Assembly: GCA_027080315.1 (NCBI GenBank) | Contig: JALWSI010000061.1 | Span: 1 to 7,711 of the forward strand | DNA length: 7,711 nucleotides | Direction: 5' to 3' | Origin: a bacterium | Lineage (GTDB): Bacteria > Thermosulfidibacterota > Thermosulfidibacteria > Thermosulfidibacterales > JALWSI01 | Shown: one piece after another, positions 1-5,571 of the stretch | How the letters are laid out: each line of letters begins with the position of its first letter | Numbering within the stretch: position 1 is the first letter of the stretch | The notes under the pieces: model-generated | The model's database searches: none | Seen by the model: only the letters and a program-made list of their open reading frames with translations | What the model was told of the DNA's origin: nothing | Position numbers and translations under genes: made by a program

Positions 1-15
1 CCTGCATCCCACCCC

Positions 16-43
16 TTGACAGATATGGGCATATGCCTATTTA
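16..43 (+). promoter_or_regulatory. Candidate sigma-70 promoter of the DUF5320/DUF134 cluster
   Basis: A perfect -35 hexamer TTGACA lies at 16-21. Sixteen bases later there is a TATTTA -10-like hexamer at 38-43, within a T/A-rich stretch. A start of transcription near position 50 would leave a short leader before the Shine-Dalgarno AGGAGGTG at 76-83. A palindromic repeat occupies the -35/-10 spacer and its second copy lies just downstream of the expected start, so the promoter looks regulated. The -10 is imperfect, and TATTAT at 42-47 is an alternative with a longer spacer. Confidence 0.6.
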
Positions 44-64
44 TTATTAACGGGCATATGCCTA
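27..64 (+). repeat. Tandem palindromic operator-like repeats
   Basis: The 13-mer GGGCATATGCCTA occurs exactly twice, at 27-39 and 52-64, 25 bp apart. Each copy contains the perfect 10-bp palindrome GGCATATGCC (28-37 and 53-62). The first sits between the -35 and -10 hexamers and the second just after the expected transcription start. That is the geometry expected for a dimeric regulator blocking the promoter. The DUF134 helix-turn-helix protein encoded at the end of the same cluster is the obvious candidate ligand, but that pairing is inference. Confidence 0.65.
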
Positions 65-87
65 AGAAATCCATTAGGAGGTGCAAG

Positions 88-462
88 ATGCCAGGATTTG
101 ATGGAACTGGACCTTGGGGATTGGGTCCCAGAACAGGAGGAGGTAGAGGATTCTGTCCCCCAGGCTCTGGACCCGCATATGGGTACTACAGAGGAGGATT
201 CTACGGTGTAGGTAGAGGCGGCCTTCCCTGGGGTGGAGGCAGAGGAAGAACCTGGGGAGGGGGAAGAGGCTGGTGGTGGAGAGGCAGGTTTGTTCCTCCC
301 ACCTGGGGATGGTACACTCCCCTCTATCCCAGCTGGAGCATCTCTTCCCAGGACGAGGCTCAGTTTTTGAGAGATGAAATAAAGTTCCTTGAAGAGCGCA
401 TGGCCCAGATGCAACAGAGGCTGAACGAGCTTGAGTCTGAAACCGGGTCAGTAGAGGAGTAA
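88..462 (+). CDS. DUF5320-like Gly/Trp/Arg-rich protein with C-terminal coiled coil
   Basis: Predicted protein of 124 residues. The start at 88 is chosen because a strong Shine-Dalgarno AGGAGGTG (76-83) lies four bases upstream and the protein then opens with MPGFDGTGPWGLGPRTGGGRG, the hallmark N-terminus of DUF5320 proteins. A longer reading frame back to 16 would run through the promoter. Residues 10-70 are dominated by Gly, Arg and Trp (GWWW near 61-64), with one cysteine (Cys23). Residues 87-117 form a charged heptad-like helix, probably a coiled coil for oligomerisation. The biochemical role is unknown. In anaerobes, proteins of this type usually sit near DUF134 regulators and NifX/NifB-like Fe-Mo-cofactor-domain or Mrp-type ATPase genes, which hints at metal-cofactor handling, but none of those partners is in the window. 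The next gene begins three bases after the stop. Confidence 0.8.
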   Translation: MPGFDGTGPWGLGPRTGGGRGFCPPGSGPAYGYYRGGFYGVGRGGLPWGGGRGRTWGGGRGWWWRGRFVPPTWGWYTPLYPSWSISSQDEAQFLRDEIKFLEERMAQMQQRLNELESETGSVEE

Positions 463-465
463 AAG

Positions 466-717
466 ATGCAAAGAGGAGCAGGCGGAGGTAGAGGCGGCGG
501 CATGGGCGGAGGCCGTGGAGGTGGTAGAGGCATGGGTGGAGGAGGCCGCGGAGGGGGTAGAGGCATGGGTGGAGGAATGGGCAGAGGTATGGGAGCCGGC
601 AGAGGGGGAACCTGTGTATGTCCCCGCTGCGGCTACAAAGTGGAACACATACCTGGAAATCCATGCGTCAACCAGAGCTGTCCCCACTGCAATGTTCCCC
701 TTGTGAGGGGAGAGTAG
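466..717 (+). CDS. Gly/Arg-rich small protein with C-terminal zinc-ribbon-like module
   Basis: Predicted protein of 83 residues in two parts. Residues 3-48 are almost entirely Gly, Arg and Met, built from repeats of GGGRGGG and RGMGGG. Residues 50-75 carry six cysteines in a C-x-C-x2-C ... C-x4-C-x2-C pattern (Cys50, 52, 55, 67, 72, 75), including CPRCGY and CPHC knuckles that look able to bind Zn or possibly Fe. Small proteins with this cysteine tail and a Gly-rich head recur next to DUF5320 and DUF134 genes, but I know of no assigned function. The Shine-Dalgarno GAGGAG lies at 454-459, inside the end of the upstream gene, which suggests translational coupling. The Gly/Arg tract could bind nucleic acid or form a flexible, aggregation-prone segment; that is speculation. 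The repetitive DNA also creates long open frames on the opposite strand, which I regard as artefacts. Confidence 0.75.
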   Translation: MQRGAGGGRGGGMGGGRGGGRGMGGGGRGGGRGMGGGMGRGMGAGRGGTCVCPRCGYKVEHIPGNPCVNQSCPHCNVPLVRGE

Positions 718-720
718 AGA

Positions 721-1059
721 GTGAGCAGGCCACCCAAAAAGAGGAGGGTGTGCTGGAGGTGGGGATGGCGCAGGTTCTCTCCAGAGGTTCCGGGGGGAGA
801 AGAGGTGCTTCTCACCCCCGATGAGCTTGAGGCCATACGCCTATGTGACGGAGAAGGTCTTTACCACGAAGAGGCGGCAGAGAGGATGGGGGTATCGCGC
901 CAGACCCTGGGCAGAATCCTCTCTGCTGCCCGACAAAAAGTGGCCTTGGCATTAACCGAAGGAAGGCCCATAGTACACCTGCCGTCGGAAGATCCACAGG
1001 TAGAGAGGTTTGTGGAGTTCTCACCCCAGAGGAGAAGATGGAGGGGTGGAAGAGGTTAG
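721..1059 (+). CDS. DUF134 (UPF0251) family helix-turn-helix DNA-binding protein
   Basis: Predicted protein of 112 residues starting at GTG 721, three bases after the previous stop, with a purine-rich Shine-Dalgarno GGGGAGAG at 707-714. The N-terminus MSRPPKKRRV and the segment LTPDELEAIRLCDGEGLYHE (31-50) are characteristic of DUF134. A sigma-region-4-like helix-turn-helix follows at about 49-76, with recognition-helix residues around GVSRQTLGRILSAARQK. The family is annotated as putative DNA-binding; its targets are largely uncharacterised. Typical members carry extra N-terminal cysteines, while here only Cys11 and Cys42 are present. The C-terminal 20 residues are unusual: RRRWRGGRG echoes the Gly/Arg-rich composition of the two upstream products. 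Position at the end of the cluster, with paired palindromes at the cluster promoter, suggests an autoregulator (inferred). Confidence 0.85.
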   Translation: MSRPPKKRRVCWRWGWRRFSPEVPGGEEVLLTPDELEAIRLCDGEGLYHEEAAERMGVSRQTLGRILSAARQKVALALTEGRPIVHLPSEDPQVERFVEFSPQRRRWRGGRG

Positions 1060-2512: not shown

Positions 2513-3535
2513 CTAATCTTCTGCCACCACTCTTAAATGTCTATCTTCAAGTTCAACCACCCTTCCCACAACAACCCCTGGAATGAGGGGTGCTTTAGCT
2601 TCGGGAACTGAGATGAACAGCCCGCCAGAGGTCTGAGGATCGTAGAGAAGCATCTCAAAAGGATGATGATCAAAGGCCTTATGCAGATGGTCTGCCACAA
2701 AATCCCTGTTTCTGTAGGCTGCAGCAGGAATAAGCCCCATATTGGCATACTCAAGGGCATGGGGATGAACCACAGGCAACCTATCAATCCACAGTTCTAT
2801 GGTTACCCCGCTGGCCCTTGCCATCTCAAAGGCGTGGCCTACGAGACCGAAGCCGGTAACATCGGTACACGCACTTGCCCCTGCCTCCAACATGGCCTCT
2901 GAAGCCTCAGCATTGAGCCTGCTCATCACCTCAATAGCGGCCTCTGTAGCCTCATTTGAGGCAAGTCCACCTTTGATGGCGGTGGTGACAAAACCGGTGC
3001 CTAAGGGTTTAGTCAAAACCAGGAGCTCCCCAGTTTTTGCAGAGGCGTTGGTGACTATCCTGTCTGGATGCACAACCCCTGTCACAGAGAGACCGTACTT
3101 AAGCTCAAGGTCGTCAACGCTATGCCCCCCCAAAAGCACCGCATCAGCCTCTGAGACTGCCTGGGCACCACCCTCCAGAACACTACTCAACACCTCAAGG
3201 GGCAGCTCGCAGGTGGGAAAGGAGACTATGTTCATGGCGGTCAAAGGCCTGCCACCCATGGCGTAAACGTCAGAAAGCGAGTTGGCAGCGGCAATGCGAC
3301 CAAAGGCGTAAGGGTCGTCCACCACGGGGGTGATGAAGTCCACAGTCTGGATCAAGGCCGTGGTCTCATTCAAGAGATAGACCCCTGCGTCGTCTGAGGT
3401 CTCCATACCAACAAGCACCTCTGGCTTTGTAGGCGACGAGACGGATTTGAGCACCCGGGCCAGGTCCCCTGGCCCCAGCTTGGCCCCTCACCCTGAGGCC
3501 CGAACCGTGGTGGTAAGCCTCTTGATCTCCCTCAT
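2513..3535 (-). CDS. selD: Selenophosphate synthetase (selenide, water dikinase), selenocysteine-containing
   Basis: SelD makes selenophosphate from selenide and ATP, the Se donor for selenocysteine and selenouridine in tRNA. The gene should be read from ATG 3535, not GTG 3454, giving 340 residues. The recovered N-terminus is [15 protein letters not shown], then the TGA codon at 3490..3488, then [16 protein letters not shown] is residue 16 and aligns with catalytic Cys17 of E. coli SelD (G-C-G-C-K), and Lys19 aligns with essential Lys20. Other family motifs are intact: SDDAGVY (Asp48/Asp49), [11 protein letters not shown] (from 65), SDVYAMGG (Asp89), GGHSVDD (from 136), [11 protein letters not shown] (Asp225) and DPQTSGG (from 299). 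The start overlaps the yedF stop as ATGA. Sec at this position is known in many bacterial SelDs. Starting at GTG 3454 would remove the whole catalytic loop. An inactivating nonsense mutation is the alternative, but position, flanking conservation and the downstream hairpin argue strongly against it. Confidence 0.93.
3457..3490 (-). promoter_or_regulatory. Candidate bacterial SECIS element with Sec UGA codon in selD
   Basis: The UGA is at 3490..3488. Starting 13 bases after it, the mRNA forms a perfect 8-bp stem GGGCCAGG / CCUGGCCC with a GGA loop (3475..3457). If the last G-C pair opens, the loop becomes GGGAC. Loop guanines lie about 20-22 bases from the UGA, comparable to the GGU loop of E. 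coli fdhF read by SelB. An outer AGC/GCU pairing could extend the stem. Spacing, the short stem and the loop G's fit the general bacterial SECIS pattern. The hairpin coincides with codons for the conserved GPGDLAR stretch, so part of the complementarity could come from G/C-rich codons. Confidence 0.75.
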
Positions 3536-4140
3536 CCTATTGTCACCACCTTATCCCCACTGGTCAGCCTCTCAACGGTGTCGTACATGTTGGTGATCAC
3601 CCCCACCCCAAGCTGATCCTTCACCCCAAAAAACTCAAGGCAGGTGCCACAAGAGTAGAGCTCAACCCCTGACTTCTCAAGCTCCCTCAAAGGCTCAAGG
3701 ACCGAAGAGGTGGTGAGGGTTAGGAAGACTCCACGATTGAGAAAGAGAATCCTTTTGGGGAGACGGCTTGCCTCGGTCAAAGTGGCAATGAAGGCCCTCA
3801 TAAGCAGACTGCCCAGCTCCTCTTCTGGACCAATGGAGTCGCTGGTGATCAAAAAGGTCACCCCTTCTTCCCCTTGTTTACGAAGCTCCTGAGACCCTTC
3901 GGTTGAAGGAAGGGAGCAGGTGTATCCCTTGGCTATTGTGAGGACAAATGTGCCCTCTTTATCTGACACCTCAACGGCACAGCCCTGGCTCTCTGCAAAC
4001 CTACGCACATTCTCGCACGAGGCCTGGTTATCCACCAATACAGTGATCACTCCCTCATCAATCTTCTCTAAGGCCTCTTTTGTCTTCAACACGGGAACGG
4101 GACAGGACAATCCCCTTGCATCAACCTCTCTATCGTTCAT
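3532..4140 (-). CDS. yedF: YedF-type selenium metabolism sulfurtransferase-like protein (TusA + DsrE-like domains)
   Basis: Predicted protein of 202 residues. The N-terminal TusA/SirA-like domain (about 1-72) holds the signature [18 protein letters not shown] with reactive Cys13 in the C-P-x-P motif. The C-terminal DsrE/DsrF-like domain (about 91-200) ends with a Cys pair in [13 protein letters not shown] (Cys164, Cys167). This two-domain architecture defines the selenium-metabolism YedF family, which co-occurs with selD and is thought to carry or relay persulfide/selenosulfide species; its exact chemistry is not established. Both gene junctions are ATGA overlaps: its start overlaps the upstream desulfurase stop (4140..4137) and its stop overlaps the selD start (3535..3532). 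This points to translational coupling and a shared task. Further cysteines (42, 54, 75) lie outside the two motifs. Confidence 0.9.
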
Positions 4141-5297
4141 GGTGTCGCCTCCCGGGCTATGGAGCTCAAAGCATCAATCACCACAGCCACATCATCTTCG
4201 GTGTTTGTGAATCCAAAAGAGATCCTAACAGTACCCTCAGGAAAGGTTCCAATGGCCCTGTGGGCAGACGGAGCACAGTGCAGCCCTGGTCTGGTCATTA
4301 TTCCGTACTTTTGGTCAAGAATGGTAGAGGTCCACCCCGGATCCATACCCCTCACCAGTACCGAGCAGACTGCCACCCTCTCATCTCCCTGAGGGCCCCA
4401 CAGGGAGATTCCCTCCATCCCCTTAAACCTCTCCATAAAAAGCCCTAAAAGCCCCCTCTCGTGGGCGTGGATTCTCTCCAGTCCCACAGACTCCAGCCAC
4501 TCTAAGGCCGCATTGAGGCCGGCAATCCCCTCTGCGTTAGGGGTACCGCTCTCGTAAAGATCGGGAAGTATTTGGGGCTGTACCTCCTCCTCAGAGTTAC
4601 TCCCAGTGCCTCCACAAACGAGGGGGGGAGGCAGCTCATCACCTGAGATCACAAGCCCACCTGTCCCCTTTGGTCCCCCTAAGCCCTTGTGACCTGTGAA
4701 GGCAAGGTAGTCTATCTTGAGACGCTGAACATCAATGGGGAGAACCCCAGCAGTCTGAGCCGCATCCACCAGCAATAAGGCCCCAGTCTCCTTTGCTACC
4801 CGAGAAACATCCTCCAGGGGCACCACCTCTCCCATCACATTGGAGCCATGGTTCACCACAACTATTCGGGGCATCACCTGAAAGCAGAGCCTCTCAAACT
4901 CTTCCAACCAGTGGTGAGCAGCCGTGCCCCCTTTTGGCGATATGGTATGAACCTTCACCCCCCTTCTCTCACAAAGGGCGTGTAGAGGACGCATAACCGC
5001 ATTGTGCTGAAAGGGGGTGACCACAACCTCATCCCTTTGCTTCAACACTCCAAAGGCGAGGTTTATGGCCTCTGTGGCGTTCTTGGTGAAGATCACTCTA
5101 TCGCTACTGGGAGCACCAAATAGGTTAGCCAGTCTGCTGCGGCATTGGTAGAGAATACGCCCTGCCTCCACCGAGAGCCTGTGCCCAGAGCGACCGGGGT
5201 TACCCCCCACCTCTTCCATATACCTAACCATGGCCTCCACCACCCCTGGCGGTTTGGGGAATCCAGTAGCAGCGTGGTCAAGATATACGAGTCTCAT
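4137..5297 (-). CDS. Cysteine desulfurase family protein (class V aminotransferase fold), likely Se/S donor
   Basis: PLP enzyme of 386 residues that releases sulfur (or selenium) from cysteine (or selenocysteine). It resembles the SufS/CsdB-like subgroup found beside selD and yed[17 protein letters not shown] is the N-terminal signature. Visible cofactor residues are His98 (stacking; FQHN), Asp178 and Gln181 (VDAAQ), and the Schiff-base Lys204 in [15 protein letters not shown]. Catalytic Cys341 lies in [12 protein letters not shown], followed by the conserved [16 protein letters not shown] chose ATG 5297 because it directly precedes the family signature and has AAGGA upstream, overlapping the stop of the preceding gene. 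The longer frame to 5318 would need a TTG start inside that gene. The stop overlaps the yedF start (ATGA). Context suggests selenium delivery to SelD, but the sequence alone cannot separate selenocysteine lyase from cysteine desulfurase activity. Confidence 0.9.
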
Positions 5298-5304
5298 CAG
5301 ATCC

Positions 5305-5571
5305 TTACACCTTTGCAACCTTTAAACTCAAAGGAAGGGTCTCGGGCATAAGATACACTCCGCTGACCTTGTCTTGGCATCTCTCTTCAATCACAGAGAT
5401 ACCCTCTTTCAAAAAGCCTTTGCTGATCAACAGAGAAACCCCGCATTCGCTACTCACAACCTTGGGAGTGGGAATAACCAGGCACTCTACCCCCTTATCT
5501 TTCAGAGCGTTCTCTATTTCAAAGGCGTAATGCCCGCTTTTGGGAACAATAAGCACACCCTCTCTCTTCAT
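5305..5571 (-). CDS. DUF3343 family protein, putative Se/S carrier
   Basis: Predicted protein of 88 residues matching the DUF3343 pattern (Pfam lists the family as a putative Se/S carrier-like protein): a hydrophobic beta strand (GVLIVP), then a helix with HYAFEIENALKDKG, then LVIPTPKVVSSECGVSLLIS. Cys43 in the SSECG motif is the likely carrier residue; Cys30 and Cys65 are additional. The family has been noted to co-occur with selenium-utilisation genes, and here it is the first gene of the selenium operon, seven bases ahead of the desulfurase. The Shine-Dalgarno near ATG 5571 is poor (TAAGG only one base away). GTG at codon 6 is an alternative with AGAGAGGG just before it, but it would shorten the first strand. 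A selenium-carrier role is inferred from family and context. Confidence 0.8.
   Translation of the reverse strand: MKREGVLIVPKSGHYAFEIENALKDKGVECLVIPTPKVVSSECGVSLLISKGFLKEGISVIEERCQDKVSGVYLMPETLPLSLKVAKV

Follow-up and report, generated by a model that had tools for sequence, protein, structure and literature searches.

The window, by which we mean the whole stretch of 7,711 nucleotides analysed here, is contig C61 of a fragmented assembly (1.84 Mb in 253 contigs, 94% complete). Its minus strand carries a gene for selenide, water dikinase (SelD) and, upstream of it, the genes of a Se/S carrier-like protein, a cysteine desulfurase, and YedF, all in the same direction and with overlapping ends. 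The features of the locus are as follows:

2513..3535, minus strand: selD, selenide, water dikinase, 340 residues with a predicted selenocysteine (Sec) at residue 16, from the read-through translation and a profile match
3488..3490, minus strand: in-frame TGA, the putative Sec codon, aligned with the catalytic Cys/Sec of SelD
3452..3454, minus strand: GTG, the apparent start for a standard gene caller, which encodes a Val inside the real protein
3457..3475, minus strand: SECIS-like hairpin, with an 8-bp stem (GGGCCAGG/CCTGGCCC) and an apical GGA loop that begins 21 nt past the TGA
3532..4140, minus strand: yedF, sulfurtransferase-like selenium metabolism protein (TIGR03527, 220 bits, cut-off 110), overlapping selD by ATGA
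4137..5318, minus strand: cysteine desulfurase family protein (TIGR01977, 406.9 bits, cut-off 377)
5305..5571, minus strand: putative Se/S carrier-like protein (PF11823, 44.6 bits, cut-off 25)

When the TGA is read through, the selD frame runs on the minus strand from ATG 3535 to a stop ending at 2513, with a single TGA at 3490-3488. The first-pass annotation had given the range 3452-3535, which is right for the N-terminal part, but the whole gene spans 2513-3535. As that annotation had described, ATG 3535 shares the bases ATGA with the stop of the yedF ORF (4140-3532). It had also claimed that the frame upstream of GTG 3454 stays homologous to SelD through the TGA up to this ATG, and the profile match bears this out: TIGR00476 (the selD model of NCBIfam) matches the read-through protein from residue 6 to residue 314 with 384.5 bits (cut-off 125), covering positions 1-310 of the 311 in the profile. 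The catalytic motif of the family is complete, with the Cys/Sec position three residues ahead of the essential Lys (U16 and Lys19, motif UGAK) and then the GPGDL loop.

We aligned the 340-residue read-through product with SelD of both the Cys and the Sec type, as had been suggested, from about 110 loci that include some duplicate records. The column of residue 16 is reached by 111 loci and contains only TGA (104 loci) or TGC/TGT (7 loci), which agrees with the earlier placement of the TGA at the catalytic Cys/Sec position; near relatives are over-represented in the sample, and the share of TGA does not equal its general frequency. In the same order, seven genomes have a full SelD match, and each of these matches contains a TGA, as does the majority of full-length SelD matches in the 145 genomes searched. 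The residues ahead of the TGA are also conserved among relatives (VRASG in the nearest ones), and GTG 3454 is therefore not the real start.

Some of these genomes encode more than one SelD. A relative of the same order (G001, contig C5:1381-2292) has, besides its main Sec-type SelD, a second and diverged one (46% identity), also with one TGA. Another genome (G052, contigs C27, C53, and C33) has two Sec-type SelD and a third one within an uninterrupted frame of 745 residues, which is probably a fusion. Long frames of this kind are also present in G009, G037, G142, and G144.

The bases that follow the TGA can fold into a stable hairpin. The folding energy of the first 45 bases, counted from the TGA, is -26.1 kcal/mol, and none of 200 synonymous recodings that keep the protein is equally stable (z of -4.3). 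Compared with dinucleotide shuffles, the hairpin is moderately unusual (z of -2.2). The mean z against synonymous recodings is -1.4 for 95 Sec loci and -0.2 for the 7 Cys loci. The stem shows a compensatory change: one pair is G-C in the window, A-T in one relative (L024), and T-A in two others (L061 and L066). The two sides of this pair fall on a third and a second codon base. The 27 nearer Sec loci provide 216 cells, of which 182 are paired, above all of 1000 column shuffles (mean 164), a count to be read with the reservation that pairing leans high among related sequences and that column shuffles can be exceeded without structure. Shifting the partner columns by one or two positions results in poorer pairing in the same 27 loci. 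Covariation and stability give good support to a SECIS-like hairpin, predicted to be the element bound by SelB.

The first-pass annotation held that the organism decodes Sec and proposed a search of the same genome for selA, selB, and selC. All three are present in single copy, on contigs other than that of the window. The gene selA (C208:3004-4359, 630.8 bits) lies directly ahead of selB (C208:4392-6266, 376.5 bits), and the tRNA-Sec (C237:4797-4887) scores 83.5 bits (gathering score 47) and is assigned the anticodon TCA by ARAGORN. Within the window itself, Rfam and ARAGORN gave nothing useful. We found no second SelD in the genome, including no complete one of the Cys type; its other matches to the AIR-synthase fold are distant from SelD. 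Hence, neither a lack of the machinery nor a second complete Cys-type selD, the two observations that would have spoken against the earlier claim, was found.

The claim of a Sec-decoding host is further strengthened by a second gene with an in-frame TGA. This gene encodes a peroxiredoxin of the PrxU type (contig C138, approximately 3471-3869; L157:1483-2082), matches the PrxU model of NCBIfam with 377 bits (cut-off 270), and contains one TGA within its AhpC-TSA domain. The TGA lies in the motif FYPGDFTFVUATE and aligns with the peroxidatic Cys of solved peroxiredoxins. The predicted Sec decoding is seen in two unrelated genes, selD and PrxU, and does not rest on selD alone.

We sought further selenoproteins through searches for individual families and in ten of the contigs. 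FdhA or any other formate dehydrogenase, YbbB (selenouridine synthase), and YqeB were not found in the 94% complete assembly, absences that are provisional given its incompleteness; the sole match to PF00384 (molybdopterin-oxidoreductase) sits among complex I genes. The ORFs of the FlpD and HdrA types in the genome are uninterrupted, its CCG-domain proteins have no in-frame stop, and there is no convincing match to a NiFe(Se) hydrogenase. The search for TGA-interrupted frames on the ten contigs returned 174 candidates, which by eye and motif resemble plain gene ends or non-coding frames. The discovery of the TGA in the peroxiredoxin gene led us to reject SelD as the sole selenoprotein of the genome. 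The products of Sec decoding seem to be SelD, a peroxiredoxin, and possibly further proteins. Its occurrence without formate dehydrogenase, YbbB, and YqeB, as seen in this incomplete assembly, is a combination that is uncommon though not unknown.

The TGA could be a real stop, either in a decaying selD or as a sequencing error for TGC or TGT, and a standard gene caller would indeed end the frame there. We regard this as very improbable: the identical TGA occurs at the same column in independent assemblies across many phyla, the frame is otherwise undamaged and conserved, and the genome, which has selA, selB, and selC, contains no SelD besides this one. Equally hard to credit is translation from GTG 3454 into a SelD of 313 residues without the catalytic loop. 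The uninterrupted part of the frame from this GTG is its longest open stretch, as expected if the gene began there, but the protein would lose both the catalytic Cys/Sec and the Lys, and the residues upstream of the GTG are those conserved among relatives.

The least probable of the alternatives is a variant genetic code in which TGA stands for another amino acid. It would account for an in-frame TGA with a protein still kept downstream, but other genes, yedF among them, end in TGA, the Sec machinery is complete, and in both genes found the TGA falls at a Cys/Sec active site.

The neighbourhood of selD is also consistent with selenium metabolism. The order desulfurase-YedF-SelD recurs in relatives of the same order, two of which also have the carrier. 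The cysteine desulfurase is related to the model of the Sec lyase SclA but scores under its cut-off. From what is known of these families, the likely role of the operon is to supply selenium to SelD. The gene after selD (HlyD/EmrA family) has the opposite orientation, and selD is therefore apparently last in its operon. At the start of the window (1-1059, plus strand), a DUF5320 protein, a Gly/Arg/Met-rich ORF of 83 residues with a Cys-containing stretch at its end, and a DUF134 protein resembling sigma-70 region 4 follow one another.

The SelD of the E. coli type belongs to the same family and catalyses the same reaction, with Cys in place of Sec, and hence lacks self-dependence. The solved SelD of Aquifex aeolicus (PDB 2yye, 2zod) probably derives by mutation from a natural enzyme with Sec. 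Its chain in 2yye aligns over residues 5-316, shares the loop SGxxAKxGPGDL, and has a Cys where the SelD of the window has the TGA. The Sec-containing bacterial SelD resemble the present one in family, Sec position, N-terminal motif, a SECIS-like hairpin that follows the UGA, and the presence of selA/selB/selC in the genome, and show no difference of note besides the species. In the survey of Peng et al. 2016 (PMC5029168) they are the second most numerous bacterial selenoprotein, with 394 Sec-SelD proteins in 383 organisms. Mariotti et al. 2015 (PMC4561486) found that 19% of SelD genes in a set of reference genomes have Sec, and that its position does not vary. The selD of the window is one more gene of this type; SelD genes that depend on their own product have been known for a long time, and the present one is an ordinary example.

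We conclude that selD is almost certainly a functional Sec-type gene, whose UGA would be read as Sec to give a selenophosphate synthetase of 340 residues encoded in a likely selenium-supply operon. The earlier view of SelD as a selenoprotein of a Sec-decoding host is upheld by selA, selB, the tRNA-Sec, the single SelD, the SECIS-like hairpin after the TGA, and PrxU. Sec insertion and the enzyme activity are predicted from what is known of the family. At the UGA (3490-3488), the ribosome would insert Sec with the aid of the tRNA-Sec, SelB, and the hairpin immediately downstream; the resulting enzyme would have a catalytic Sec16 with Lys19 nearby. Probably supplied with selenium by the Se/S carrier, the cysteine desulfurase, and YedF, it would make selenophosphate for SelA, and in this way serve its own Sec and that of at least a peroxiredoxin.

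The first-pass annotation had further noted that SelD would need Sec for its own synthesis. This is a logical consequence of the pathway and has already been discussed in the literature. The role of selenium sensor that it proposed for this self-dependent loop is speculation. Since selD is apparently the final gene of its operon, translation ending at the UGA would not turn off any gene further along in it. We consider it unlikely that the Sec-dependent SelD acts as a positive feedback switch, in which low selenium would lower SelD and lead to a deeper loss of Sec decoding; if it did, selenoprotein synthesis would be shut off sharply and not gradually. The proposed reading of selD restores the full length of a gene that would be cut short in standard annotation, and indicates that a poorly described lineage decodes selenocysteine.
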